Origin: Planctomycetes bacterium syqfu
GTDB lineage: Bacteria; Planctomycetota; Phycisphaerae; Phycisphaerales; Phycisphaeraceae
Assembly: GCA_020974905.1 (NCBI GenBank)
Contig: CP087563.1
Coordinates: 4,712,001 to 4,776,000, forward strand
Length of the DNA: 64,000 nucleotides
Direction of reading: 5' to 3'
The notes beneath the pieces were generated by a model. The model worked only from the letters and a program-made list of their open reading frames with translations, ran no database searches and was not told the origin of the DNA. Of this stretch, positions 5,901 to 59,460 are shown one piece after another. Position 1 is the first letter of the stretch. Every line of letters begins with the position of its first letter. The position numbers and the translations under genes are program-made.

Positions 5901-7205
5901 TCAGGATTCACCTGTTGCTTCATCCGTATCACAATCACCGTTCACATCATTTTTCATCAACTCGCGCAAGACCACGGTGGCGAACGCGCCCTTTGGCATG
6001 ATGAATTGCAGGCGGACAAAGCTGCCATGTTCATCGACGCCACCGGTGATTTGTGGGTCTTGAATCATGATGCGTAGGGATCGACGTGAACCCCGGGTCA
6101 ACGGGCAGGTCTCAATGAGTTGCTGCTCAATGTCGAAGGCTTTCAGTGCCTGGTGTTCCAACTCACCTTCGACACCTTGAGCTTGCAGCAGGTCACTGCC
6201 CCACATCGGCCCTGACGGTGAAATCAGTCCTTGGGTGACGCGCCCTGCAGGATCGGTTGCGTTCTCCAACTCTGCCTGTGCTTCATCGACCGCAAAGACA
6301 CTTTGATTCTCATGCTTCATCGCCAGATCACCGGGGAGCAGTTTGGCGTAAGTTCCTGCTTTGACGCGTTGGTCCAACACCCAGTTAAAGAGATAACTCT
6401 GTGCTGCCGAGCCGTAAAACAACCGCTGTGTTTCGGCAATGCTGTAGACGGCTTTACTGATGGAGCGACCTTTAGCCAAGGCGTTGAGTGCCTGGCGTTC
6501 GTAGCGTAAAGTCCGTGGCCAGTGTTGCAGCGCGGTTTGATAATCACCAGCGTCAAAGGCTTGTCTTGCTTCACGGGTTGCCTGGTGATCGCAATGTTCC
6601 GCATCGCCAAGCAGTTGTTTTAATGCTGCTTCAAAGTCACGCTTGATCAGCGCGCGGCCGACGAGATGGTTGTCCCCCAGATACCCAAAGCGCTGTGGCC
6701 CGAAGTAGTTGGGGACACCATGATTGGCCATGTGATCCAGCACGCGCTTGGCACGGATCACCGCGGTGGGATCGACATCACGAATACGGATATCAAACCG
6801 GTTACCCGCCAGATGCCCACGCCGGAGTTTGTTGTTGTGGCGATCCGCCCAGAGGATGGTGAAGGGTTGGTCTTTGGCTGCTTCGACGCGACGTGCATCC
6901 TGACTTTCCCCGCCGGGCAGGTGGATGGAAAACATCTGCCTGGTCAGCGCATGTTTATCCTTGAGACCAGCATAGCTGACCTGCTTATTGCTCACATCAA
7001 ACAGCCTGGCCAGTTTCGCGACCACGTCCATGGTGGTCATGTTGGTCTTCTGGACAAACAGGTACAGGTGTTCACCCTCGCCACAGGGTTCGTAGAGTGG
7101 CTCTTCGGTGACAACGAAGTCATCGGCACGCTGCTTGATCGAACCCCCGATCCCCGGCAGGTCGGCTGTTGCGTAGGCTAAGGGTTGGTTTGATCCTGAC
7201 ATCAT
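5901..7205 (-). CDS. truD: tRNA pseudouridine-13 synthase TruD
   Basis: Converts uridine 13 of tRNA-Glu to pseudouridine. 434 residues. The catalytic motif of the TruD family is visible as YAGLKDKHALTRQ, with Asp the expected nucleophile. Other family features are FVVTEEPLYEPCGEGEHLY near the N-terminus, the GNRFDIRIRDVD block and GVPNYFGPQRFGYLGDNH. The C-terminal part, RGSRRSLRI followed by GSFVRLQFIMPKGAFATVVLRELMK, closes the TruD fold. Two adjacent ATG codons (7205, 7202) are possible starts. It is separated from ilvE by a hairpin repeat. Assignment is secure. Confidence 0.95.
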   Translation of the reverse strand: MMSGSNQPLAYATADLPGIGGSIKQRADDFVVTEEPLYEPCGEGEHLYLFVQKTNMTTMDVVAKLARLFDVSNKQVSYAGLKDKHALTRQMFSIHLPGGESQDARRVEAAKDQPFTILWADRHNNKLRRGHLAGNRFDIRIRDVDPTAVIRAKRVLDHMANHGVPNYFGPQRFGYLGDNHLVGRALIKRDFEAALKQLLGDAEHCDHQATREARQAFDAGDYQTALQHWPRTLRYERQALNALAKGRSISKAVYSIAETQRLFYGSAAQSYLFNWVLDQRVKAGTYAKLLPGDLAMKHENQSVFAVDEAQAELENATDPAGRVTQGLISPSGPMWGSDLLQAQGVEGELEHQALKAFDIEQQLIETCPLTRGSRRSLRIMIQDPQITGGVDEHGSFVRLQFIMPKGAFATVVLRELMKNDVNGDCDTDEATGES

Positions 7206-7234
7206 AAATAACCATGTTTGGTTTCAAGGCAAGT

Positions 7235-7329
7235 AACCACAGATAAACACGGATGAACACAGATAAAGACAGAAAGTTAGCTAGCAAACGAAATCGACAA
7301 TCTGTGTTTATCTGTGTTCATCTGTGGTT
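7235..7329. repeat. micro-repeat hairpin (CACAGAT units)
   Basis: The left arm AACCACAGAT..AACACGGATGAACACAGAT pairs with the right arm ATCTGTGTTTATCTGTGTTC then ATCTGTGGTT. The arms are about 30 bp and are built from near-tandem 8-12 bp units. The loop holds about 35 bp. It has the same architecture as the elements at 23412, 57045, 58086 and 62492 but different unit sequences. Confidence 0.8.
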
Positions 7330-7366
7330 CAATTCTGATAGTCAGTGATTGATATTAAAGCCGTAA

Positions 7367-8248
7367 TTAATCTTCCGGTGCGTTGGCGACCAAGTCGCGG
7401 AAGGCAGCGAGCAGTTGGTTGGTGACGGTGCCCGGCTTGCCATCACCGATGACGCGGCCGTCGACCTTGGTCACAGCAATGACTTCTGCTGCGGTACCGG
7501 TGAGGAACATTTCCCGTGCGGTGTAGAGGTCATGCTTGGTCAGGTCCATGCGCACCACGGGGATACCCGCCCGCTTGGCAAGCTCGATCACCAGGTTCAT
7601 GGTGACGCCTTCAAGAATGCCCGCGTGCAGTGGTGGGGTGATGAGGGTCGTTTGGCCTTCCCAATCCCGGACGATGAAAATGTTATCGCCAGTACACTCT
7701 GCGACATTGCCCTGGGTGTTGAGCATGACCGCTTCCATCACGCCAGCGTCGATCGCTTCGATCTTGGCAAGCACGTTGTTGAGATAGTTCAGACTCTTGA
7801 CGCGGGGCGAGAGTGCAGCAGGATGCGTGCGACACACCGAACTGGTGATGATCGCCATGCCGTTGTCATACATTTCCTGCGGGTAGAGTTTGATGGAGTC
7901 CGCAATGATGTAGACACAGGCGCGCTGGCAGGTGAAGGGGTTGAGTCCCAATGTGCCTGCACCGCGCGTGACCACTAGGCGGATGTAGCCATCGGTGAGT
8001 TGGTTGGTTTTGCAGGTTTGCTTCAGCGCATCGGTGATCTGCTCTTGCGTGTAGGGGATGTCCAGGCGAATGGAATGTGCCGACTCAAAGAGACGGGCGA
8101 CGTGCGTAGCGCACTTGAGGATGCGATCGTTATAGATCCGGATGCCTTCAAAGACACCGTCACCATAGAGCACACCATGGTCAAACACACTCACTGCTGC
8201 TTGTTCAGCAGGCACCAGGTTACCGTCGAGCCAGACTTTCTTGGACAT
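7367..8248 (-). CDS. ilvE: branched-chain amino acid aminotransferase
   Basis: PLP enzyme for the last step of valine, leucine and isoleucine synthesis (fold type IV). 293 residues from the ATG at 8248; the frame stays open another 93 codons upstream, but that part is not conserved-looking and overlaps a repeat cluster. Family motifs: FDHGVLYGDGVFEGIRIY near the N-terminus; SPRVKSLNYLNNVLAK with the PLP lysine; EAVMLNTQGNVAECTGDNIF; EMFLTGTAAEVIAVTKVDGR. This is the short IlvE type, close to D-amino-acid transaminase in fold, so a different specificity within the family is possible but less likely. The roughly 75-150 bases upstream of the start carry a CTTCCGGGG cluster. Confidence 0.92.
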   Translation of the reverse strand: MSKKVWLDGNLVPAEQAAVSVFDHGVLYGDGVFEGIRIYNDRILKCATHVARLFESAHSIRLDIPYTQEQITDALKQTCKTNQLTDGYIRLVVTRGAGTLGLNPFTCQRACVYIIADSIKLYPQEMYDNGMAIITSSVCRTHPAALSPRVKSLNYLNNVLAKIEAIDAGVMEAVMLNTQGNVAECTGDNIFIVRDWEGQTTLITPPLHAGILEGVTMNLVIELAKRAGIPVVRMDLTKHDLYTAREMFLTGTAAEVIAVTKVDGRVIGDGKPGTVTNQLLAAFRDLVANAPED

Positions 8249-8320
8249 CGTGCAAATCCTTCTACTATCAGCCAACCTCCGAAAGCGACATTGACAAAAC
8301 AGCCGGTGTTGACTTTCACG

Positions 8321-8402
8321 GGTCAGTTCCGGGGTCACTTCCGCGGTGAACTTCCGGGGTTCCTTCCGGGGGTTCGGGTCCCGGGTAAACTTCCGGGGGA
8401 GT
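8321..8402. repeat. CTTCCGGGG cluster
   Basis: Within about 80 bases the short motif (A/G/C)TTCC(G/C)GGG occurs five times (AGTTCCGGGG, ACTTCCGCGG, ACTTCCGGGG, CCTTCCGGGGG, ACTTCCGGGGG). Similar clusters are at 12262-12298 and 44099-44140. It lies in the 5' leader region of ilvE. Confidence 0.7.
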
Positions 8403-8667
8403 CGGGCATTATAGCGAGTCTTCTGAGCTTTTGCCGATTTGCCGGATTCGGACTTGGCATGGATTGATGCAACATTGCCTCGATCATGCCAGCCAGGGTG
8501 TTGGTGGTTCCAATATTGTCCGTTCACAGCCGATAACGCGCAGGATATCCATGAAACGCCTGATCTTGTCGATGAAGAGCAGGAGTCAAAAAAATTGATT
8601 GCTCTGTTGAGCTTTGAAATCTAGACTTTGCATATCCGCTTTAACCTGTTTTCCGCAGGATATTTCC

Positions 8668-11600
8668 ATGGCAATTGAATGTGACATCCCGTGGGTCTTC
8701 AAATACGGCGTTCTGATTGTTTTATTGAACGTCCTTTCTGTTACTGCGCATACAGATGATCAATTGTCCCAGGACGCTCGTCACGAAGTACAACTCACGG
8801 AACTGGAGAAGCAATGGCTCGCAGAGCATCCGACCATTCGCATGGCGATTCCTTCTGATGTTACCGGCTTGTCCAGAATCAATGCCGATGACGAACTCGA
8901 AGGTTTTCTGGTTGATTATCTTCGGCTCATCGAATCGCGTGCCGGTTTCAAATTTGAAATGATCGCCGTTCCATACAAGGATTTTCTCAAAGGTGAGATT
9001 CAGAAGACAGTTGATGTGAATATGGGCAATGCGCAAATTGACCCACAAAATGAATTTTGCTTTACCAAGGTGATTTTTCGCATTCCGTTGGTCATCATCA
9101 CCCGTTCCGATGCGCCGTTTGTCTCAGGTCGACATTGGTTGGCTGGCAAACGCGTTGTGGTCCTCAAAAGTTTTGCTGCTGAAAAATATCTCAGGGACGA
9201 CCCGTTGAAGATTAACTTGGTTCCTGTTGATTCGGTTCGTGAAGGTCTCTATGCGGTGAGTTTTGGGCAAGCCGATGCCATGATTAATGGTTTGTTGCTC
9301 CCATCGCAGATCATTACCAATGAACATATCACCAACCTGAAAATCGCCGGCCAATCGGGTTATCCCGACTATGAAGGTTCGCTTCGGATTCGCAAGGATT
9401 GGCCCGAACTCCAATCCATCATCGACAAGGCCTTGGCGACCATTACCCCACAAGAACATGCACAACTGATGCGCCGATGGATGGGGACCCAGGTCCAGGA
9501 TCATGCTCATTGGCAACGGGTCTGGCAGTGGGGCGGATTAATCGGCGGGGGGTTGTTACTCTTACTGATGGCATCCGTCTTCTGGAATCGCCAGCTCAAA
9601 AGCCAGGTCGCACTGCGAACCCACGAACTGGAAGTTTCAACCCAAACCCTCAAACAAAGTGAAGAGCGCTTTCGCAGTACCTTCGAACACGCAGCCGTCG
9701 GCATGGCGCACACCTCCACCCAAGGCTTGATTCTCCGGGCCAATCAACGGTTCTGTGATATGCTCGGTTATGACCGTGATCAAATCATTGGCATGCATTT
9801 CCGGGATGTCACGCATCCAGAAGATCTGGAAAAAAGTCACGAGTACTATCGCTGCTTGATGAATGGTGAATCTGACTGTTGCCAGACAGAAAAACGCTAT
9901 TACCGAAAAGATCGTAGCGTGGTTTGGTGCAATCTCAGTACCACCCTGCTCAAAGACGATCAAAACCAACCCCTTTATTTCATCAGTGTCATCGAAGATA
10001 TCACCGAAGAATACCTGGCCAAGGAGCAACTTCAGGAACTCAACCAGAAACTCCAAAGCGTCATGGATGCATCAACCCTGGCATTGATCATCTCAACCGA
10101 CAAACAAGGTGTGATTCAACTCTACAACTCCGGCGCTGCCGCATGCTTGGCTATACCGCTGATGAAGTGGTTGGCAAGCAAACACCGGTGCTCTTCCATC
10201 TCGAAGCAGAAATCAAGTCCAGGGGGGCAATCCTCACCAAACGCCTCGGCCGTGAGGTCCAGGACTTTGAAGTCTTTGTCGCCCAGGCCCAGTTCGGCAG
10301 CTATGACGAAAACCAATGGACCCTCGTCCACAAGGATGGCAGTCATGTCCTGGTCAATCTGGGCGTCACTGCCATATGCGATCAACAGGGGGAGATTGTT
10401 GGTTTTCTCGGTGTTGCCCAGGATATCACTGAACGTGTCAAGGCCAAGCAGGATCTGGCGCAAAAGGAAGAGAACCTGCGCATTACGCTTAACTCCATTG
10501 GTGATGCGGTCATCGCAACTGACAGTGACGGCCGGATTGTGCAGATGAATCCCGTTGCTGAAAAGCTCACCGGTCGCGGCCTGGATCAGGCGATGGGGCG
10601 AAACCTCACCGAAGTGTTCCGGATCATCAATGCAAAAACACGCCAGTCCATGCCCAATCCTGTTGAAAAAGTCCTGGAATCAGGTGAAATCGTCGGCCTG
10701 GCCAATCACACGATTCTCGTTTCAGCTGACAGTACCGAATATCAGATTGCCGACTCGGGCGCACCGATTCGCAATGATGCTGGTCAGATTATTGGCGTGG
10801 TGCTGGTTTTCAGAGATGTCACCACTGAGTATGCCATGCAGGCCCGTATCCGTGAGACGGAAAAAATGCAGGCCATCGGGCAATTGGCCGGCGGTATCGC
10901 CCACGACTTTAACAACATGCTCGGCGGGATACTCGGTTCAGCAGAACTGCTCGAAGACCGACTGCCTGACGATGCAGACACGCGCGAACTTTTTCAAATC
11001 GTCATGCAATCTGCTCAGCGTGCTGCGGATCTGACTAGTAAACTTCTGACCTTCTCACGCAAGCAACCTGCTGAATCCGCGATTCTTGATGTTCATCTGT
11101 TGCTCAAGGACACCGTCACATTACTCAAACAAACCATTGATCGTCGAATTGAAATCAATACGCATTTCAATGCTCAACATAAATTGATCGTTGGCGATGT
11201 CACCCAACTGCAAAACGCTTTTTTGAACTTGGGCATCAACGCGTCACATGCCATGCCCAACGGCGGGAAAATTCATATCACCACGGATGTGGTCGACTTG
11301 ACCCCTGAGCATGGCCCCAAGACCACCTTTGATCTCAAAGCCGGTCAATACATCCAGATCAGTGTGCAGGACACCGGAACCGGTATCGCGCCCGAGCATC
11401 TGAACCATATCTTCGAACCCTTCTTCACAACCAAGCAACAAGGCAAAGGCACCGGGCTTGGATTGGCAACTGTCTTCAGTTCCGTCAAGCAACATCAAGG
11501 CTCCATCACTGCGTCCAGTGAAGTGGGATCAGGCACACGCTTTACCATCTGCCTGCCATTGGCAACCGTTGGGGAACCTGTCGAAACAGGAGACGCGAAT

Positions 11601-11990
11601 AAAAATCGTGTGCATGGCAAAGGCCACATCTTGATTGTCGATGATGAAAAAGTCATGCGCGTCACCGCCAAAGCCATCCTCGAAGACCTTGGCTATGAAG
11701 TCTCCCTGGCAGAAGACGGGCAGATCGCATTGGACCGCTTCCGTGAAAATCCCGACACGTTTGACCTGGTGGTTCTGGACATGATGATGCCCAACCTCAA
11801 TGGCAAGGATTGCTTCCTGGGGATGAAACAGATCAAGCCCGACATCAAGGTGATTCTCTCCACCGGCTACACCCCCGAGTCGGAGTTACTGGCCATGAAA
11901 GCTGCCGGACTCACCGCGTGGATCAAGAAGCCTTACATGAGTGGTCCGTTAAGTCAGAAGATTCAGGAAGTGCTTGAGCAATCCGAGTAG
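8668..11990 (+). pseudogene. hybrid sensor histidine kinase, interrupted by a single frameshift
   Basis: A membrane-bound hybrid two-component kinase. The ATG at 8668 follows GCAGGA with good spacing and starts a signal-anchor (VFKYGVLIVLLNVLSV). Domains in order, by base: periplasmic SBP_bac_3-like solute-binding domain (about 8790-9500), transmembrane helix (about 9527-9590, GGLIGGGLLLLLMASVFW), three PAS domains (about 9660-10010, 10040-10440, 10460-10840), HisKA with phospho-His in GGIAHDFNNM (about 10900), HATPase (about 11170-11540, with DTGTGIAPEHLNHIFEPFF and GTGLGLATVFS), and a C-terminal receiver (HILIVDDEK, VVLDMMMPNLNG, WIKKPYM). The frame breaks inside the second PAS domain near 10138: restoring one C turns the sequence into the expected GAARMLGYTADEVVG. 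Everything else is intact, so this is either a very recent mutation or a sequencing error. Confidence 0.88.
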
Positions 11991-12136
11991 AGCTTTGTCA
12001 CATTGAAAACAATCACATCTCTCACTCCCGCGTGCGCGTCTTGTCTGCGATTGTCGGACATTTCATCGACCTTGGCTGGTGATCACGTGAACCTTCTGAT
12101 TGCGAGTCGGCTCAAGTCAACGATGCGCAGTAAAAA

Positions 12137-12165
12137 ACCGTGCGGGTTGTCACATCCCGCACGGT
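12137..12165 (-). terminator. intrinsic terminator for the HTH-receiver gene
   Basis: 10-bp perfect stem (accgtgcggg / cccgcacggt) with a 9-nt loop. Read on the minus strand it is followed by six T. It lies about 130 bases beyond the stop codon of the gene at 12299-12874 and could also slow transcription arriving from the kinase on the plus strand. Confidence 0.8.
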
Positions 12166-12261
12166 GAGGTCAAGGTTTTTCTGTGTTGTTTGTCCCTGAC
12201 CGGTTGCCGGTGACCTTTCACTTGTGTTCAAGCCATGACGGCCAATTCAACACGGTGAAAA

Positions 12262-12298
12262 ATTCCGGGACTTCCGGGGGCTTCCGGGGGACGGGGGG
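12262..12298. repeat. CTTCCGGGGG cluster
   Basis: AATTCCGGG followed by two direct CTTCCGGGGG units and a G-run, abutting the stop codon of the next gene. The 10-mer recurs at 8321-8402 and 44099-44140. Confidence 0.7.
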
Positions 12299-12874
12299 TT
12301 AGATTGTTGCAGCGACTGCTTCGATGCATTCGATGACCTGGCGAACATGGAACGGTTTCTTGAGGTAGTGGTCAAAACCGTTGTTCATCAGGTGCTGAGC
12401 CTGGCCGTCGGTGAGTTTACCGCTCATGGCAATCACCTTGGTCATCTGCAGATCGCCGTTTTCACGGACGAGTTTGAGCACATCTTCGCCGGACACATCG
12501 GGAAGATGCATGTCCAGGAGGATGACGCTGGGACGGAATTTTTCACATTCCAGACCCGCTGAGAAGCCGCTGTGTGCGACTGCAACATCGTAGTTGGCCT
12601 GTTCGGTGAGCACCTTCTGAAGCACGTCCACGATTTCTGATTCGTCATCGACGATCAGGATTCGGGTGCGACCTGATTGCAGGGCATCCATCGGGATATT
12701 GTGTGCTTTCATGAATTTGATCAACGCACTCAAGGGAATGCGACGGTCTTTGGAACCGGGAATGCGATAGCCGCGCAGTTGGCCTGAATCAAACCATTTG
12801 CTGACGGTACGCGGAGCAACGTTGCAGATCTTGGCAACTTCACCAGTCGTTAGAATATCTTTCTGACGTGACAT
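12299..12874 (-). CDS. HTH-receiver response regulator (DNA-binding domain first)
   Basis: 191 residues from the ATG at 12874, preceded by GGAGAAAGCTT (good ribosome-binding site); a longer open frame upstream looks spurious. Residues about 1-60 form an excisionase/MerR-type helix-turn-helix (TTGEVAKICNVAPRTVSKWF, then YRIPGSKDRRIPLSALIKF). Residues about 70-190 form a complete CheY-like receiver with ILIVDDESE, phospho-acceptor Asp in VILLDMHLPDVSG, and Lys in HYLKKPF. The order (DNA-binding domain at the N-terminus, receiver at the C-terminus) is the reverse of most response regulators. The sensor kinase upstream on the other strand could be its partner, but that kinase has its own receiver and no direct evidence links them. 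Its own terminator lies downstream. Confidence 0.88.
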   Translation of the reverse strand: MSRQKDILTTGEVAKICNVAPRTVSKWFDSGQLRGYRIPGSKDRRIPLSALIKFMKAHNIPMDALQSGRTRILIVDDESEIVDVLQKVLTEQANYDVAVAHSGFSAGLECEKFRPSVILLDMHLPDVSGEDVLKLVRENGDLQMTKVIAMSGKLTDGQAQHLMNNGFDHYLKKPFHVRQVIECIEAVAATI

Positions 12875-13009
12875 AAGCTTTCTCCATATCTCCATGTCGG
12901 GATTAATTTCCTCCGACCCGACGTTGTATTCATCGTCGCTTTGGACAACCGGATTAACTGATACGACACGAAAAAATGACAGAAAATGCAGGAGACGCCT
13001 GCTCGGCAC

Positions 13010-13652
13010 AATGCTCCTAACGCGTCTAAGCGTGATAACTGTGGGTTTTAGCGTAGTAAAACGCGGTTTGGAGGGATTGGGACAGGTCGGTAAAAAAATT
13101 TCAAGATCGGGTCAAAGCGGGGACCAGCATCGGTTCTGCTCGCATACAGGTAAACAATATCAAGGCATGTTACTTGGCCAGGGAGCTTCGCCCCCCCCGG
13201 GCCCGCTTGCGAGGTCGGTGTGTTAGGGCAAGTGATGTTGCTGTGTTGCATTCAATGGAATGAAGACCATTTTGTGATGGGGTTTCACCCCAAACCCCGC
13301 CAACGAGCAGCCGTTGGATCGCTGCCCCCGGAAGTGGGGTTGTTTGGACGGTTCAGAAGGTGCGTTTACAACACGTTAATCGGACGATGAACATACCAAG
13401 CGTGTGGGTGTTCAAACAGATGTCATAAACCGTGTAAACCAGACGACGAAGGCCCAGCCCTTCCTGGGGGACGTGATCCAGCGGCGGAACGCTGGCGGGG
13501 TTTGGGGCAGAGCCCCATCTAATCTCTGTCTTCAATTCATTTGAATGCAAGACAGCAATATCACACGCTTTGATCACCCGATCTTGCAAGGGGGTCCGGG
13601 GGGGCGAAGCTCCCTGGCAAAGAAAATTGTCGTTGCCCGCATCAATAAAGGG
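13010..13652. repeat. gene-free region with composite inverted repeats
   Basis: No credible gene. A segment at about 13165-13205 (TTGGCCAGGGAGCTTCGCCCC, C-run, then CTTGCGAG) recurs in inverted orientation at about 13575-13622 (CTTGCAAGGGGGTCC, then GGGGCGAAGCTCCCTGGC). Between them, 13280-13345 (GGGGTTTCACCCCAAACCCCG and CCCCCGGAAGTGGGG) and 13440-13525 (CCCAGCCCTTCCTGGGGGAC ... GGGGTTTGGGGCAGAGCCCC) form a second imperfect inverted pair. This suggests nested palindromic insertions. Confidence 0.55.
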
Positions 13653-13898
13653 TCACCCACCACTCACCGGCGGGATCAGGGCGACCTGGTCCGCTTCCGT
13701 GAGTACATCATCTGCTTTGGCATAGCTCATGTTCACTGCCACACTCACAGACTGAAGCAGTGGGGCCAGTGCAGGGTATGTCTTTGGTAAATGGGATAAC
13801 AATTGGCCCACCGTCGCTCCATCAGGCAGGGCAATGGACACTTCGCTAGCATTAACTGCTTGTCTGAGCACTGCAAACAATTCAACGGTTACTGTCAC
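13653..13898 (-). CDS. moaD: molybdopterin synthase small subunit / ThiS-like sulfur carrier
   Basis: 81-residue ubiquitin-fold sulfur carrier. The C-terminus is PPVSGG, the Gly-Gly tail that is adenylated and thiocarboxylated. The N-terminal half (VTVELFAVLRQAVNASEVSI) and LPDGATVGQLLSHL are typical of MoaD, which supplies sulfur for the molybdopterin dithiolene. No other molybdenum-cofactor gene is in the window, so the pathway is inferred from the sequence alone. ThiS or another sulfur-carrier role cannot be excluded, but AVNMSYAKADDVLTEADQVA fits MoaD best. Confidence 0.85.
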   Translation of the reverse strand: MTVTVELFAVLRQAVNASEVSIALPDGATVGQLLSHLPKTYPALAPLLQSVSVAVNMSYAKADDVLTEADQVALIPPVSGG

Positions 13899-23411: not shown

Positions 23412-23480
23412 ACCACAGAGTCACAGAGACACAGAGAAAAATACTTATTTCTCACTCTGTGCCTCTGTGCCTCTGTGGTT
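23412..23480. repeat. micro-repeat hairpin (CACAGAG units)
   Basis: ACCACAGAGTCACAGAGACA CAGAG pairs with CTCTGTGCCTCTGTGCCTCT GTGGT across an AT-rich 18-base loop, in the divergent space between mutS and priA (158 bases), which must also contain both promoters. Confidence 0.85.
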
Positions 23481-23514
23481 CATCCATTGATCTTGACTGT
23501 GCTAAACTACCCCC

Positions 23515-53344: not shown

Positions 53345-53371
53345 TTTGAGCACCGGATCGCATGCCGATTT

Positions 53372-53465
53372 CGTCATTCCCGCGCAGGCGGGAATCCAGT
53401 GGCATGCAGTTGACGCTTGCAGGTTCCACTGGACTCACGCCATTCCGGGAGCGCGGGAGTGACGG
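53372..53465. repeat. CGTCATTCCCGCG-type inverted-repeat element
   Basis: CGTCATTCCCGCGCAGGCGG GAATCCAGTGG ... CCACTGGACTC ... GCGCGGGAGTGACGG, about 93 bases; relatives at 20518 and 59354. The 616-base space 53345-53960 holds this and the two following repeats, and no gene. Confidence 0.8.
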
Positions 53466-53661: not shown

Positions 53662-53960
53662 ACAATACCTGACGCCATGATTCACCCCATACCCTACTCA
53701 TAAAACTTGTGTTTAAGTCCCGGTATGGACTGGTCAAATGACCGTCGAAGGCTGTAGAATGTTTTTTCGACAGAAGCGATTATTCCTTCCTCAAAAAAAG
53801 TGACAGGGGTTTGTCACTGACTCACCTGATCGGCATCGGCCAATTTTTGCCGGTTTGATGTCCTCGAACAACATGGGGGCCAATTCTCCCAGTGCAAGCA
53901 CGCCTCGGATCCATTCTGGCTTGCGCCACCACGCCCGGCAGTGATCGGGCAATCCGTCGG

Positions 53961-56240
53961 ATGTCTGCGAAGCTTGTGACCGTAGCCATATTCGTGGGGC
54001 TGTCCTTCGCGCCGATCTCACCGGTGATCGCCCAGGTCAAACAGGTCCCGCCACTGCTTGAAGAAGCCCGCCAGGCTGCCTTGGATCTGCATCAGCTGCC
54101 GTTGGGTGATGAGCGTGCCAGCGCGCTACTGACGCATGGTCTGGATGTGCTCCAACTTGCCAATCACATGGTCGAGGAGCATCTGGATCAACTCGGTGCT
54201 GCCCAGGGTCCACTCTCCAAGCAGGACCGCCGACTCACGCGTTTACAGCAGGCTCGCATTGCCTACGTTCAAGGTGAACTCTACCGACTCACTGCCATGA
54301 AGCGCAGCATGGATGACCCGACGCGTGCTGCGTATCTGGATAGTGCGGTTGCGATTTTTTCGGAGATGCGCGCTAAGTTTCAATCCATTGATGATGCGGA
54401 ACTGGCCCGTGTCGGATTAGCTCGCTGTTACCGGCTGCAGGGTCTGATTGAGGAAGCAGAAAAAATTCTCGAACCCCTGCTGCGACACATCCCGGATTTG
54501 GCGGACGCCTCAGCAGCCAATCTCTGGCGCGTGGCGGTGATCGAGCAACTGGAACTCGCCCTGATCACCGATCCGCAGCAGGCCATGTCAACCGCTGCAC
54601 AATGGGCGGACCACAACGCCTTTGCCAACCAGGGCAGTTGGCAGCATTCCCTCTCACGCATCGGCGCCCTGGCAGCAGTCCAACTCGCTTTGGAAACGCC
54701 CACTGCAGCGACTGTCCAATTGGCTGTCGAAAAACTCCATGAATCGAATCTGCCCGAAGCAATGCAACTCCAGTATCTCGTCCGATTGGAACTGGCATCG
54801 GATATCCCCGTGGTCACCGCACAGCAGCGTAATGACTGGGTGCTGCTGCTTGTCGATACGCTTTCGCCGCAGCAGGCAGTAGACCGCATTGCCAAACAGG
54901 TTCCCGATGTCGCGGTACTCAATGTTCAGGCGTTACTCGCTTACGGCAGCGCGCTCTGGCAAGTCGGCCAACTGCCCAATGCCGTCAACTGCTTTGATCA
55001 CGCCATGCAAAAAGTCGATGATACCAACCCGCTGAGGCATACCGCTGCCCTGTGGTATGCCCAGTGTCTCTACCAACAGGTCATCCAGACCGGCAGCAAC
55101 GCCATCCGCGCCCGCGCCCGCGCAGCGTTAGCCAGACTCGTTCAAACCCATCCGGCCCGCGACATCCGACTCACATCGCTTAAGCAATGGGTCAGCCTCG
55201 AACAGGAAGACGAAGGCCTTGCCGCTGCTGCCAAGGTCATCACCCTGCATCAGGACTTGGCAGCAGATGATCCCTACCTGCTTTACATCCTGGCAACACA
55301 TCACTGGGAAACCCTCAAGCAAAATCGTCAGGACGGGCAACTCAAAACCGATGCTGCGGTCACATTGGCCAAGACCATTGCGGATGACGCCCAAAAAATC
55401 GTCGAAAACCCCGGCGTGGATCAGCAAGTTGCTGGTGGTCTCTGCCAACTCCTGGCACGGATCTACGCTTCGGACCTTATCAAGCAACCCGACACCGCCA
55501 TGGCTTATCTGGATCAGGCGCAGACGCTGCTCGGTCAATCCCAACTGCAACTCAAAGCCCTGATTCTCATCCAGGCAGGCCTGTCGCAACAGCTTTGGGA
55601 ACTCCTGGAAAACGTGCCCCAAACCACAGCGATTTCAGCTCAGGCTTGGGTGCTCATCGTCGATGCCATCACCGATTTAGCGATGCGTCGACCCGATGAC
55701 AGACTCATTGCTGACCGCGCTGCCCAACTGGCAATCAAGGCCTGGAACGCGTCACCTGACGTGGCAGGTAGTGTGCACATCGGTCAAAGCCTCATCCGTC
55801 TGGGACAGTGGGACATCTGCCTGACGTTGCTCGGTGACCAATACCTGCCCAATACCGACCCGCAATTGAACCTGATCATCGGCCAATCCCTGTTGGGACT
55901 CAATCGTGATATTGACCAGGCAGCCAAGGTGCTCACCGAGGTGGTTAAAGACCTGCCTCAATCACCGGCTGCCCATCTCTGGCTGGGTATCGCCTACGCG
56001 CGCTCCGAACGCCATGCCCAGGCCTGCGAACATTTCAGACAAGTCCGATCCCTGGAAAAACCTGCCACCCTCCAATGGTGGCAGGCAACGCTCGGATTGG
56101 CTCAATCCCTGGCAGCAAGAGGACAACTCGCCGCTGCCAGACAAATCCTGCAAGTCACGTTGACGCTCTATCCCGTCATCGGCGATGATGCACTGGCTAA
56201 CGACCTCGTCCAGCTTTTGGGGAGACTGCAAAAACAATGA
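53961..56240 (+). CDS. exported TPR-repeat protein, first gene of the ExbB/ExbD/VWA operon
   Basis: 759 residues from the ATG at 53961, where a signal peptide begins (MSAKLVTVAIFVGLSFAPIS, then PVIAQVKQ). A GTG at 53892 would add 23 residues without a leader. The mature protein is a long alpha-solenoid with many TPR-like units: RLQQARIAYVQGELYRLTAM, GLARCYRLQGLIEEAEKILE, AHLWLGIAYARSERHAQACE. No catalytic domain was recognised. Its stop codon overlaps the start of the ExbB gene (ATGA), so the two are translationally coupled. It is a likely scaffold or periplasmic partner for the proton-driven complex downstream, but no direct evidence of the role is visible. Confidence 0.83.
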   Translation: MSAKLVTVAIFVGLSFAPISPVIAQVKQVPPLLEEARQAALDLHQLPLGDERASALLTHGLDVLQLANHMVEEHLDQLGAAQGPLSKQDRRLTRLQQARIAYVQGELYRLTAMKRSMDDPTRAAYLDSAVAIFSEMRAKFQSIDDAELARVGLARCYRLQGLIEEAEKILEPLLRHIPDLADASAANLWRVAVIEQLELALITDPQQAMSTAAQWADHNAFANQGSWQHSLSRIGALAAVQLALETPTAATVQLAVEKLHESNLPEAMQLQYLVRLELASDIPVVTAQQRNDWVLLLVDTLSPQQAVDRIAKQVPDVAVLNVQALLAYGSALWQVGQLPNAVNCFDHAMQKVDDTNPLRHTAALWYAQCLYQQVIQTGSNAIRARARAALARLVQTHPARDIRLTSLKQWVSLEQEDEGLAAAAKVITLHQDLAADDPYLLYILATHHWETLKQNRQDGQLKTDAAVTLAKTIADDAQKIVENPGVDQQVAGGLCQLLARIYASDLIKQPDTAMAYLDQAQTLLGQSQLQLKALILIQAGLSQQLWELLENVPQTTAISAQAWVLIVDAITDLAMRRPDDRLIADRAAQLAIKAWNASPDVAGSVHIGQSLIRLGQWDICLTLLGDQYLPNTDPQLNLIIGQSLLGLNRDIDQAAKVLTEVVKDLPQSPAAHLWLGIAYARSERHAQACEHFRQVRSLEKPATLQWWQATLGLAQSLAARGQLAAARQILQVTLTLYPVIGDDALANDLVQLLGRLQKQ

Positions 56241-57037
56241 ATACACCCACATGCCAACTCGCACGCCACAAACGCAAGCTGCCCATTTCATGGCTCCGAC
56301 TTGCGATGCTCGGCTTTGCTGCATTCCTGATGATCGGTCAGGCATCACCCCCCGGAAGTTCGCCTGAAGCATCGGGCGTACCCTCAAGTCTCTTTGCCTT
56401 CATCGTCGCAGGCGGCTCGATCGGCGTGGTGATCATTCTCTTGTCCTTTGTCGGATTGGGGTTGGTCATCGATGCGTTCGTCAAGATTCGCCAGGATGAC
56501 CTGCTCCCCGAGGCGCTCTCCAAGCAGGCCGTCTCACTTGCACGTCAAGGCCAGTTCACCGAACTGAAAAACACCTGCAAAGACGATGACAGCATGCTCG
56601 GCCAGATTCTCTCCTATGCCATCGAAGAAGGAGAACTCGGTCTTGATGCCGTGCGCGAACAAATCGAACACGAAGGCAATCGCCAACTCACCCGACTGCA
56701 CCAGCGCGTCGGACTCATTGGCTTGATCGCATCCATCACCCCCATGCTCGGTCTGTTGGGAACCGTTGTCGGCATGATCGACAGCTTCCAGGTCCTCGGT
56801 CTCTCCAAGGGGGTTGCAGGTCCTGACGACCTTGCAGTGGGTATCTCCAAAGCCCTGGTCACCACCTGCATGGGTCTGATTGTCGCGGTCCCGTTGATCT
56901 TTTTCCACGCCTACTTCCGCGATAAGGTCACCCGTATCAGCAACGAAACATCCGCCATCTGCGAACGCATTCTTCGTGTGATTGCCGTGGTGTTAACAAG
57001 ACAACAACAGATGATGCAACAACAAAAGAAAGTCTGA
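56237..57037 (+). CDS. exbB: ExbB/TolQ/MotA-family proton channel
   Basis: 266 residues, starting in an ATGA overlap with the upstream gene. An N-terminal leader-like segment (LRLAMLGFAAFLMIGQASPP) precedes the first canonical helix (FIVAGGSIGVVIILLSFVGL). The conserved ExbB core has GLIGLIASITPMLGLLGTVV then GMIDSFQVL, and VGISKALVTTCMGLIVAVPL then IFFHAYF, which form the channel helices. The cytoplasmic loop has the expected length, and the C-terminus is basic (QQQMMQQQKKV). With ExbD it makes the pentamer-dimer stator that uses proton flow to drive a partner helix. MotA is unlikely because no MotB or peptidoglycan-binding partner is next to it. Confidence 0.9.
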   Translation: MNTPTCQLARHKRKLPISWLRLAMLGFAAFLMIGQASPPGSSPEASGVPSSLFAFIVAGGSIGVVIILLSFVGLGLVIDAFVKIRQDDLLPEALSKQAVSLARQGQFTELKNTCKDDDSMLGQILSYAIEEGELGLDAVREQIEHEGNRQLTRLHQRVGLIGLIASITPMLGLLGTVVGMIDSFQVLGLSKGVAGPDDLAVGISKALVTTCMGLIVAVPLIFFHAYFRDKVTRISNETSAICERILRVIAVVLTRQQQMMQQQKKV

Positions 57038-57044
57038 AAACCAT

Positions 57045-57127
57045 TTAACCGCAGAGACGCAGAGGTCGCAGAGAACAAACAGGTAAAACAAAAAAATCCT
57101 GTCTTAACTCTGCGTTCTCTGCGGTTA
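57045..57127. repeat. CTCTGCG-type hairpin inside the exb operon
   Basis: TTAACCGCAGAGACGCAGAG GTCGCAGAG on the left and CTCTGCGTTCTCTGCGGTTA A on the right, 20-base loop. This is the family into which both IS110 copies are inserted. It lies between exbB and the first exbD gene and could form a strong hairpin in the mRNA. Confidence 0.85.
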
Positions 57128-57144
57128 AAAATGAATTGCCAATC

Positions 57145-57618
57145 ATGCAGCATATGCAGCTTAAATCTCGAACCGCCATCCGCTTTAATCCCAAAGTCCC
57201 GGGCAAACCGGCGACGCCGGGTGTTGCGCCGTTGGTGGACATCGTGTTTCTGCTGATCTGTTTTTATCTGTTTGTCACCCAGTCGCTCCAATCGCTGGAT
57301 GAACGCAGCGTGGAGTTGCCGATCATTGAGCAGAGTCAATCCCAGGAGTTATTGCCTGCTGAGATTGTCATCAATCTGCTGGAGGATGGCAGTGTCGTCG
57401 TTGCGCATGAACCGATGTCGATGAATGAACTGGCCATGCATCTGCGTGCATCCAAACGTTACGCGATGGACTCGGGGCAGGAACTCCGCGTGGTGATTCG
57501 GGCGGATCGCAATCAGACATTCGATAAGCTTGATACGTTGATGGACATCTCCCGTCGTGCGGGTTTGGACATGATCATTCTCCGTGCGCAGGATCAACCA
57601 AGGGGGGATTCGCGATGA
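57145..57618 (+). CDS. exbD: ExbD/TolR-family protein, first copy
   Basis: 157 residues from the ATG at 57145; a second ATG three codons on is possible, and the upstream TTG is less likely. One transmembrane helix right after the conserved Asp: GVAPLVDIVFLLICFYLFVT, where the Asp is the proton-carrying residue of ExbD. The periplasmic domain ends with LRVVIRADRNQTFDKLDTLM and the C-terminal FDKLD..LMDISRRAGL typical of the family. The stop codon overlaps the next start by four bases (ATGA). With ExbB it should form the motor complex. It follows the hairpin repeat. Confidence 0.9.
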   Translation: MQHMQLKSRTAIRFNPKVPGKPATPGVAPLVDIVFLLICFYLFVTQSLQSLDERSVELPIIEQSQSQELLPAEIVINLLEDGSVVVAHEPMSMNELAMHLRASKRYAMDSGQELRVVIRADRNQTFDKLDTLMDISRRAGLDMIILRAQDQPRGDSR

Positions 57619-58073
57619 TGTTCAAACAGCAAAGCGAGATGCAGACGGACGAGCCGTTTGAGATGACCGCGATGGTGGACGTGGTGTTTATCCTGCTGAC
57701 GTTTTTCATCATCAGCTCGCAGATGTTCGGCGCGGAGCATGATGTGGCGATGCATTACCGCACGAGTACACAGACACAGGGTTTGGCGCAGGGCGATTTA
57801 CCGCCTTCGATCGTGATCACGCTGCATAACCTTGACGAAAAGATGGTGGGCATCACGTTGGGGCAGCGCGAGTTGTTACCCAATGAGTATGCCGCGATCA
57901 CGCAGATGCTTGAGCAGATCAACCTGCCGGACTTACCGGTGGTGGTGCAGTCGCAGGGTGATGTGCTGATTGACAATGTCACCAAGGCGGTCGACGCGGT
58001 GTTGGCCAGCCCGATGAAAAAGGTGAGTTTAGCCAAGAGTCCGTTGCCGACCAAAGGCATTGAGCGAGAGTAA
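57615..58073 (+). CDS. exbD: ExbD/TolR-family protein, second copy
   Basis: 152 residues, start in an ATGA overlap with the first exbD. The transmembrane helix with the proton-binding Asp is FEMTAMVDVVFILLTFFIIS. The periplasmic part differs from the first copy (VAMHYRTSTQTQGLAQGDLP ... PVVVQSQGDVLIDNVTKAVD). The tail KKVSLAKSPLPTKGIERE is basic. A pair of different ExbD proteins is common in planctomycetes and some other bacteria and would give a stator with two types of ExbD subunit. The VWA gene follows after a hairpin repeat. Confidence 0.9.
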   Translation: MMFKQQSEMQTDEPFEMTAMVDVVFILLTFFIISSQMFGAEHDVAMHYRTSTQTQGLAQGDLPPSIVITLHNLDEKMVGITLGQRELLPNEYAAITQMLEQINLPDLPVVVQSQGDVLIDNVTKAVDAVLASPMKKVSLAKSPLPTKGIERE

Positions 58074-58085
58074 GTCCATGGCTTC

Positions 58086-58166
58086 ACCACAGAGTCACAG
58101 AGACACAGAGAAAAAATGAGTTTAATTTTCTCTGTCTTGAACTCTGAGCCTCTGTGACTCTGTGGT
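58086..58166. repeat. CACAGAG-type hairpin inside the exb operon
   Basis: ACCACAGAGTCACAGAGACA CAGAG on the left and CTCTGAGCCTCTGTGACTCT GTGGT on the right, 25-30 base loop. It sits between the second exbD and the VWA gene, and its left arm is identical to that of the element at 23412. Confidence 0.85.
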
Positions 58167-58192
58167 AAAGCCAACCAAGTTTGAATAACACC

Positions 58193-59332
58193 ATGACCCA
58201 GACAAACGACACAACCCAGAGCAGTTGGCAGAGCTTCCGCCGAGAAGGTTTGAGCTGGGTGTTGTCGTTGGTGATTCATTGCAGCCTGTTGGCTTTGCTG
58301 GCCTTGGTGACGGTGACCCAACCGTATCACGCGCCCGAGGATCTGACGGTGTCGATCAGCAAGGAAGTCGAGCCGGTGAGCAGTTCTGATGCTGCCCAGG
58401 GGGACCCGATGAGTCTTGACCCGCAGCAGCAGCTTAAGCGTATGCTCAGCGAATTGCCGATGGTCAAACCGCAGATCGTCACGCAGGTCAAGACACCGAC
58501 GGTGATGCTGCCCGAGCATCTGACATCGCCTGCCGTCCAGGCCGACATCCTCATGCAGCAGCTTTCGGCGGGGGACACCTCAGCAGGCAGTGACGATCAA
58601 CAAATCATCCCGATGGGTTTACTCGAAGGCACAACCGAAGGCTTTCAGCGCATGGTCGGTAAGTGGCGTGGGAGTGGCCTTGATGTCGTGCTCGTTATTG
58701 ATGTCACCGGCTCGATGGGACCCTACCTCGAACAAGCCAAGCGTCGACTCCGGCAGATCATGGGCGTGATCACCGGCATACTCGGCGACACCGTCGACCC
58801 GATGCAGATCGTGCGCTTTGGTGTCGTGGCCTACAAGGACTACGGCGATGACCGGACGTTTGATCCGACGGCCTGTCGCGTCTTGCCGTTGACCACGAAT
58901 CTCACGCTGGTCCAGCGTTTTCTGGAGACGCTTCATGCAAGTGGTGGCGGGGCTCCGGAAGAACCGATCCATCGCGCGATGCAAAAGGCGACCAGCGATC
59001 AACTGATGGATTGGAAAGCGGGTCGTTTGTCAGTGATTATTCTGGTGGCTGATGCGCCGGTCCACAAAGGTGCCAAAGACCAGTTGCCTCAAATTGCCAA
59101 GCGCTTTGCCATCACCCAACGCGGCCGAATCAACACCATCGACACCGGGGATGGCAGCCGCGTCCAAGTGCTCGAAGATTTACAAGTGTTGGCCGACAAC
59201 AGCGGCGGTCAGGCCTTTCTGCTCAGAGATCAGCAAGCGTTCTGGGAACACCTGATCGTCTCGATCTTCGGCCGTGAATACAAGTCTGACATTGATCTGA
59301 TCCTGCAACGGTATCTTAAAGATCAACGGTGA
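58193..59332 (+). CDS. VWA-domain protein with TonB-like N-terminal helix
   Basis: 379 residues from the ATG at 58193 (the upstream TTG is less likely). Residues 20-41 are one transmembrane helix, LSWVLSLVIHCSLLALLALV. It closely resembles the TonB helix: Ser25 and His29 match the S-x3-H motif (Ser16/His20 of E. coli TonB) that couples TonB to ExbB. Residues 42-150 are a Pro/Ser/Gln-rich linker, as in a TonB periplasmic spacer. Residues 163-370 form a VWA domain with a metal-ion-dependent adhesion site, D170-V-T-G-S174-M-G, and later VADAPVHKG. There is no TonB C-terminal domain. Last gene of the operon after exbB and two exbD, so it should be driven by them. A periplasmic VWA domain pulled by a proton motor has no classical counterpart that I can name. 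Confidence 0.88.
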   Translation: MTQTNDTTQSSWQSFRREGLSWVLSLVIHCSLLALLALVTVTQPYHAPEDLTVSISKEVEPVSSSDAAQGDPMSLDPQQQLKRMLSELPMVKPQIVTQVKTPTVMLPEHLTSPAVQADILMQQLSAGDTSAGSDDQQIIPMGLLEGTTEGFQRMVGKWRGSGLDVVLVIDVTGSMGPYLEQAKRRLRQIMGVITGILGDTVDPMQIVRFGVVAYKDYGDDRTFDPTACRVLPLTTNLTLVQRFLETLHASGGGAPEEPIHRAMQKATSDQLMDWKAGRLSVIILVADAPVHKGAKDQLPQIAKRFAITQRGRINTIDTGDGSRVQVLEDLQVLADNSGGQAFLLRDQQAFWEHLIVSIFGREYKSDIDLILQRYLKDQR

Positions 59333-59353: not shown

Positions 59354-59438
59354 CGTCATTCCCGCGCAGGCGGGAATCCAGTGGCATTCTGTTGACGTTT
59401 GCAGGTTCCACTGGACTCCCGCCTGCGCGGGAGTGACG
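59354..59438. repeat. CGTCATTCCCGCG-type inverted-repeat element
   Basis: CGTCATTCCCGCGCAGGCGG GAATCCAGTGG on the left and CCACTGGACTCCCGCCTGCG CGGGAGTGACG on the right. The ends are nearly perfectly inverted. It is the most symmetric of the three copies (20518, 53372, 59354). Confidence 0.85.
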
Positions 59439-59460
59439 AAAGTGCGAGTTGCTTTAAAAA

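Follow-up and report, generated by a model that had tools for sequence, protein, structure and literature searches.

A probable von Willebrand A force-transducer operon in a planctomycete and the ABC importer genes linked to it in related genomes

The operon and its family

We have analysed a window of 64,000 nucleotides from Planctomycetes bacterium syqfu (contig CP087563.1, positions 4,712,001 to 4,776,000 of the forward strand), part of a 7.38 Mb single-contig genome whose nearest named relatives are Phycisphaeraceae (Planctomycetota). The window contains, between positions 53961 and 59332, five co-directional genes that the list of open reading frames (ORFs) and Pfam assign to a tetratricopeptide repeat (TPR) protein, an ExbB, two ExbDs and a von Willebrand factor A (vWA) protein. 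The initial annotation had read the same operon at these positions, and the Pfam matches agree with it gene by gene. By gene set, gene order and helix it belongs to the recently described family of vWA force transducers. What is new here is that, in much of the clade to which it belongs, genes for an ATP-binding cassette (ABC) importer and a HEAT-repeat gene are linked to it, and that one relative lacks the motor. We consider it probable that the operon encodes a motor-driven envelope device, a member of that family, which would energise an uptake step for a partner ABC importer. The features of the operon are the following (window coordinates).

53961..56240, + strand: TPR solenoid protein, 759 aa (ORF and Pfam TPR families; start ATG 53961)
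56237..57037, + strand: ExbB/TolQ-like motor subunit (Pfam MotA_ExbB, 6e-28)
57145..57618, + strand: ExbD1 (Pfam ExbD, 1e-18; proton-binding Asp kept; TTG 57136 is a possible start)
57615..58073, + strand: ExbD2, a distinct second ExbD (Pfam ExbD, 3e-11; proton-binding Asp kept)
58193..59332, + strand: vWA force-transducer candidate, 379 aa (Pfam VWA_2 8e-7 and VWA_4 1e-6, both above cut-offs)
58253..58321, + strand: TonB/TolA-like transmembrane helix, S25-x3-H29-x6-L36-x3-T40 (from the sequence, numbered from ATG 58193)
58343..58363, + strand: D-box-like stretch LTVSISK, within Pro48 to Pro61, directly after the helix (from the sequence)
58679..59320, + strand: vWA domain with an altered metal ion-dependent adhesion site (MIDAS; D170, T172, S174, D287, with Glu257 at the Thr position; from alignment and AlphaFold2 model)

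The matching description is that of Williams-Jones et al. 2025 (PMC12204202, section 8), in which vWA force transducers encoded in the order TPR-tolQ-tolR-tolR-vWA are presented as being of unknown function. The locus shares with this family (Tichowtungia type) the gene set and its order, an SHLS-type helix with a conserved His, a linker of ca. 100 residues, the vWA fold, two different tolR-like genes and the presence in Planctomycetes. The novelty first claimed for the locus, that no machine of this composition had been described, is therefore not upheld. The main text of the same paper, figures and supplements aside, has no match to “ABC transporter”, “permease”, “substrate-binding”, “importer” or “HEAT”. 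Neither the ABC/HEAT link nor the class of vWA proteins with an FHA domain described below was found in a literature search that had figures, supplements and most subscription papers outside its scope. An expression study of R. baltica (PMC2754498) reports that salt induces exbB/exbD and lists a vWA gene elsewhere, which we do not count as evidence here.

Homologues of the TPR protein occupy the same place in the loci of relatives. It looks like an exported protein, with an N-terminus that resembles a signal peptide and no lipobox Cys (both judged by eye), and a GTG at 53892 opens the same frame as an alternative start. Its AlphaFold2 model (mean predicted local distance difference test score, pLDDT, 86.9) is an all-helical solenoid and nothing more specific, for which reason we discarded the fold as a functional clue. 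The genome of the window has 13 MotA/ExbB family matches, and elsewhere in it lie seven receptor plugs and two matches to TonB_C, so that the operon is an extra device and not the sole Ton-like system of the cell. S-x3-H is present in one of the two TonB helices, whereas Asn stands for the His in the second (by eye). At L105 (G000, C1:365613 region) there is a second TonB system with two consecutive ExbB genes, in which TonB is followed by a TPR gene (Pfam) and the TonB helix has Asn at the His position.

The helix, the motor subunits and the vWA domain

The helix of the vWA protein fits the SHLS motif, whose pattern we took from PMC12215075, by S25, H29, L36 and T40, with Thr in place of the last Ser; the initial numbering of the Ser and His, residues 25 and 29, is correct from the ATG at 58193. 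Alignment A1 compares nine vWA proteins with identities as low as 36%, and apart from these two no column of its transmembrane segment is invariant. Counting the window, there are 13 full-length vWA proteins associated with a motor, 12 from the clade and one from L071, a locus outside it. All 13 have S-x3-H in this segment, and the other positions of the motif are less strict among them (Leu at the third in 11/13, Ser or Thr at the fourth in 12/13). As a background, a hydropathy scan of 490 other gene-like ORFs gave S-x3-H in 3 of 467 transmembrane segments, the vWA rows having been scanned under a looser hydropathy rule. With a common transmembrane caller, 10 of 10 motor loci are marked when the segment is taken slightly wider, and the background rule marks 3 of 3 more. 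The window helix is followed by PEDLTVSISKEVEP. The stretch LTVSISK, enclosed by prolines, matches at all but one position the pattern given for the TonB D-box in PMC10907165, in which hydrophobic and hydrophilic residues alternate between prolines. By this likeness it may bind ExbD.

The motor subunits keep most of the residues of such a system. Ser70, Thr176, Thr210 and Pro219 of ExbB are invariant in the eight ExbBs aligned (L029, L138, L139, L141 and G019 are left out of this alignment) and pair with Ser, Thr and Pro positions of TolQ/ExbB structures, the pairing in helix 1 (Ser70 with Ser28 of TolQ) being weak. The proton-binding Asp is present in all 26 ExbD rows, from 13 loci; that of ExbD1 aligns with the ExbD of PDB 7ajq/6tyi and that of ExbD2 with TolR. 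The best PDB matches of ExbB and ExbD2 are TolQ and TolR, respectively. In the ExbD tree, ExbD1 and ExbD2 form two groups that are inherited together (93/96), which suggests an ExbD heterodimer; the second copy of L071 falls beside the ExbD2 group.

The AlphaFold2 model of the vWA protein (mean pLDDT 68.6, nine sequences) has a helix at residues 11-42, a stretch of low confidence to about residue 142 (ca. 100 residues) and an alpha/beta vWA fold at 163-376. This domain was matched to vWA folds by Foldseek (best E 4.8e-10) and by VIA-align, in which an integrin beta I-like domain (integrin beta subunit) aligned over 192 residues with Z 18.2 and a root-mean-square deviation of 3.0; the names integrin and anthrax-toxin receptor in these searches were taken to indicate the common vWA fold only. 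It had been proposed that a MIDAS-type vWA domain replaces the C-terminal domain of TonB in this protein. VWA_2 and VWA_4 are found in it and no TonB_C (PF03544) match is listed up to E 1. Of the MIDAS, D170, T172 and S174 (DxTxS) and D287 are invariant in alignment A1, but a complete site is not upheld at the Thr position, where an invariant Glu257 aligns with the Thr of “QGTAIG” in BatB, which we take to be a MIDAS residue. The site thus looks like an altered MIDAS.

Gene order and linked genes in the clade

The clade was traced in a sample of the class (397 genomes, of which 11 gave matches at or below E 1e-40), in 61 genomes of relatives and in named contigs. Duplicates were left out (L010, L011 and L012 are the same contigs as L029, L030 and L031; L136 and L137 correspond to L033 and L032), and neighbouring genes without a profile or family assignment are treated as unannotated ORFs only. 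The 14 distinct loci form a single vWA clade (100/99), and the order TPR-ExbB-ExbD-ExbD-vWA, when tabulated, is found in 11 of them (the window and 10 of the 13 others). The exceptions are L064 (split), L140 (contig end) and L142 (motor missing). The split concerns G019, in which all five genes are kept but on two contigs, TPR-ExbB in L064 (8143-10342) and ExbD-ExbD-vWA in L167 (6869-9972); an epimerase and an RNase HII-like gene (by eye) lie upstream of its TPR-ExbB, as in the window. Outside the clade, L071 (G185, 7107-13694) has a vWA gene followed by those of a 325-aa protein, ExbB, ExbD, ExbD and a protein of 832 aa that weakly resembles the TPR family (9e-11).

An ABC permease gene lies 3' of the vWA gene in 9 of the 14 loci, or 9 of 11 lineages if the window genus is counted once. 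A substrate-binding protein gene is found between the two in eight loci and an ABC ATPase gene was seen in six (the stretches of L138 and L141 end inside the permease). The vWA and binding-protein genes are tightly spaced or overlapping, and the eight binding proteins of these clusters form one clade (99/97) that excludes 12 further binding proteins of their class, so that the association looks old and inherited. At the other end, a HEAT-repeat gene (Pfam HEAT_2 3.5e-25 in L139; signal-like N-terminus by eye) stands directly before the TPR gene, or its fused equivalent in L142, in all seven ABC loci with sequence there. In G558 there is a partial HEAT match on a separate contig.

The linked binding proteins belong to the FbpA class, like those of the ABC importers of ferric iron, 2-aminoethylphosphonate and pyridoxal phosphate, and their best PDB matches are annotated as Fe3+ transport proteins. 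They differ from the iron-binding HitA in an invariant Asp-Asp that aligns with its Tyr-Tyr pair, presumably the iron ligands. Ferric iron was not retained as the cargo in view of this replacement and of NCBIfam, where the top-ranking model is one for 2-aminoethylphosphonate, at 83-109 bits and far below its cut-off of 310. Related binding proteins also lie near genes for a MoxR-type ATPase, DUF58 and vWA proteins in L122 (G000, C1:5428000-5445000), L123, L124, L125 and L139 (15599-19998). Permease and ATPase genes are present in part of these loci, and the MoxR/DUF58/vWA neighbours were checked with Pfam in L122 only. This ABC family thus occurs beside vWA proteins in two settings.

A natural absence bears on the coupling of the helix to the motor. 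In L142 (G507, 96% complete, 5% contamination) the fetched 20 kb yielded neither ExbB nor ExbD. The best ExbB match of this genome reaches 1.5e-43, while the operon-type ExbBs of G000, G041 and G019 score 1e-108 or better. The only hydrophobic segment of its vWA protein is N-terminal and has no S-x3-H. Behind this segment, a TPR-family region of about 230 residues (E 2.5e-20) is fused to the vWA domain in a single gene (7588-9138), after which the ABC genes follow. The joint absence of helix and motor, together with the TPR-vWA fusion, supports both the coupling of helix and motor and the partnership of TPR and vWA, on the evidence of one contig of one draft genome. A TonB-like helix, as originally proposed, is sustained by the motif S-x3-H-x6-L-x3-[ST], the D-box-like stretch, the conserved Ser, Thr and Pro of ExbB and Asp of ExbD, and the absence of the helix from this relative without motor genes. 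No operon-type ExbB was found in G562 (76% complete).

Ton and Tol-Pal in the same genomes

Fifteen genomes carry this vWA protein, that of G185 lying outside the clade. Plugs were found in eight of them and TonB_C in nine (one below cut-off); no receptor Plug match was found in 7 of the 15, and neither Plug nor TonB_C in six (G011, G019, G466, G558, G562 and G605), four of which are at least 90% complete and one of which, G605, has 9% contamination. TolB_N was matched in none of the 15 and in 3 of 14 controls. It is therefore unlikely that the device stands in for TonB with its known receptors or for the standard Tol-Pal, and we rejected this role on genome content. With TonB-ExbB-ExbD the operon shares the helix motif, the D-box-like stretch and most motor residues; it differs in the lack of TonB_C in the window vWA protein and in its occurrence in genomes without a receptor-plug match. 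With TolQ-TolR-TolA it shares the helix motif and, for ExbB and ExbD2, the best PDB matches, and it differs in that TolB_N is unmatched in all 15 genomes, in the vWA domain in place of the C-terminal domain of TolA and in having two distinct ExbD/TolR genes.

A distant vWA class

In a sample of the phylum (392 genomes) matches to the vWA protein were found in at least 122. Wide loci were fetched for 37 listed matches plus G019, G041 and G011 (40 loci in total), mostly the best-scoring ones and not a random draw, and some of them short (3 kb in L070). With L071 counted among the motor loci, 36 distant vWA proteins are left, and neither ExbB nor ExbD was found in their fetched loci. An FHA match at E 0.01 is present in 21 of the 36, before the helix where its position is shown; examples of the class are L090 (6803-8722) and L067 (7315-9480). 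As a lead, these may be orphan force transducers with a phosphopeptide-binding head that borrow their motors.

Spacers and flanking repeats

Two intergenic spacers of the operon, with no strand assigned, are predicted to form hairpins.

57040..57136: hairpin-forming spacer between ExbB and ExbD1 (-38.7 kcal/mol, z -8.1)
58080..58172: hairpin-forming spacer between ExbD2 and vWA (-47.5 kcal/mol, z -8.1), with the same repeat at 23418-23481

Both spacers and the element at 23418-23481 are palindromic repeats of CACAGAG type, present in and outside the operon, and are possibly mobile hairpin repeats that could reduce the expression of the later genes. Another repeat, tcattcccgcgcaggcgggaatccagtggcat, flanks the operon on both sides (53370-53440 and 59355-59440).

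Proposed mechanism and alternatives

In the mechanism that we infer for docking, force transfer and uptake, a ring of ExbB with a pair of different ExbDs (5:2, as in the known structures) would use the proton gradient, the vWA protein would use its Ser/His helix to dock at the rim of this ring, the D-box-like stretch would be held between the periplasmic domains of the two ExbDs, and the motor would pull or reorient the periplasmic vWA domain, whose partner there would be the long solenoid of the TPR protein. That the vWA protein is coupled to the motor through its helix, as in TonB and TolA, seems to us quite likely, and its partnership in the periplasm with the TPR protein (and the HEAT protein where there is one) is likely as well. 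The energised step would be an opening or release at the TPR/HEAT scaffold, not at a TonB-dependent receptor, and the product would be passed to the ABC importer where present. That such an uptake step feeds the linked importer is put forward tentatively, with somewhat less than even expectation. The ancestral order would probably have been HEAT-TPR-ExbB-ExbD1-ExbD2-vWA-substrate-binding protein-ABC permease-ABC ATPase, of which the window lineage would have retained the middle five genes; in the window, with no linked importer, the partner could be another importer, or the step may have changed. The initial annotation had the motor perhaps act on a protein or an envelope polymer; no evidence of action on an adhesion target or such a polymer turned up, in the course of an analysis with no search dedicated to it, and the linked genes point instead to an ABC importer.

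Several observations weigh against a device that energises uptake in this way. Linked ABC genes were not seen in the window-genus loci examined, and the HEAT gene, searched genome-wide, is unmatched at E 1e-10 in G000, G001, G002, G019, G562 and G185, its only match in the window genus being at 4e-11 in G003. With both wanting, it is in the window itself that an uptake role has the weakest case. The motor-less L142 keeps its ABC genes, which means that importer and motor can be parted, and L140, where the contig ends in the vWA gene, has a permease with no binding protein between the two and no ATPase in the fetched stretch. No outer-membrane partner has been identified. At the level of residues, the Trp by which E. 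coli ExbB/TolQ contacts TonB/TolA is replaced by Leu in the window ExbB and by Leu, Ile or Val in those of the other operons compared, and AlphaFold2 does not model the D-box-like stretch as a strand. Finally, S-x3-H lies within a hydrophobic stretch in 26 of the 36 distant vWA proteins (L067-L103 except L071), so that the helix alone does not predict linked motor genes. As regards the window lineage, it is nested in the ABC-bearing clade (90/94, moderate support), so that HEAT and ABC genes were probably lost there.

The alternative that survives best is that the ABC genes are a passenger operon and that the device carries out wall or membrane upkeep or some other envelope task, the linkage being mere inherited neighbourhood. 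The window lineage without linked ABC genes, L142 without a motor and the related ABC set within the MoxR/DUF58/vWA cluster of other genomes are all what would be expected of passengers, whereas the vWA and binding-protein genes, which overlap or lie close together, and the single clade formed by the binding proteins of eight loci speak against it. We find this alternative doubtful and nonetheless a serious possibility. A service in surface motility or attachment, as suggested in section 8 of PMC12204202, appears improbable. vWA domains often bind proteins and the model matches integrin beta I-like domains with Z about 17-18; against this, such a match says only “vWA fold”, and the stable neighbours that can be named, in loci not scanned for motility genes, are the ABC importer and the HEAT and TPR proteins.

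It could also be that the helix merely anchors the vWA protein and that the Ser/His pair has another role. The refutation foreseen for the coupling, homologues without the pair or never near exbB/exbD, is not what the clade presents, where pair and motor go together; outside it, the 26 distant proteins keep the pair with no motor gene in the fetched stretch, as an anchor would. Against an anchor stand the rarity of the pair in the background scan (3/467), the gene linkage with an ExbB that has retained the contact Ser and Pro, and L142, in which neither helix nor motor is present; the motor of the distant proteins may have its genes elsewhere. We hold this alternative to be quite unlikely, a little more so than the one of motility. 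Least probable, and largely refuted, is a replacement of TonB at TonB-dependent receptors or of TolA in Tol-Pal, which the shared helix pattern, the D-box-like stretch and the ExbB/TolQ-type motor would allow and which the six genomes without Plug and TonB_C, the TolB_N counts (0/15 against 3/14 controls) and the two canonical TonBs and seven Plugs already present in the window genome contradict.

The reading that we prefer therefore remains that of a motor-driven envelope device energising an uptake step for a partner ABC importer. Its widest version would be a two-membrane uptake machine in which a Ton/Tol-type motor drives a vWA protein on a HEAT/TPR scaffold and serves an Asp-Asp binding protein and an ABC importer with no TonB-dependent receptor, complemented by an FHA-headed vWA class that borrows motors under the control of cytoplasmic phosphorylation; as a whole, this is speculative and rather unlikely.

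The force transducers published in 2025 lack an assigned job, and the link to ABC and HEAT genes, the absence of plugs and TolB from part or all of the genomes that carry them, and the motor-less L142 make the task of the motor testable. If an uptake system is what they form, proton motors would energise uptake at the outer envelope by a route other than TonB.

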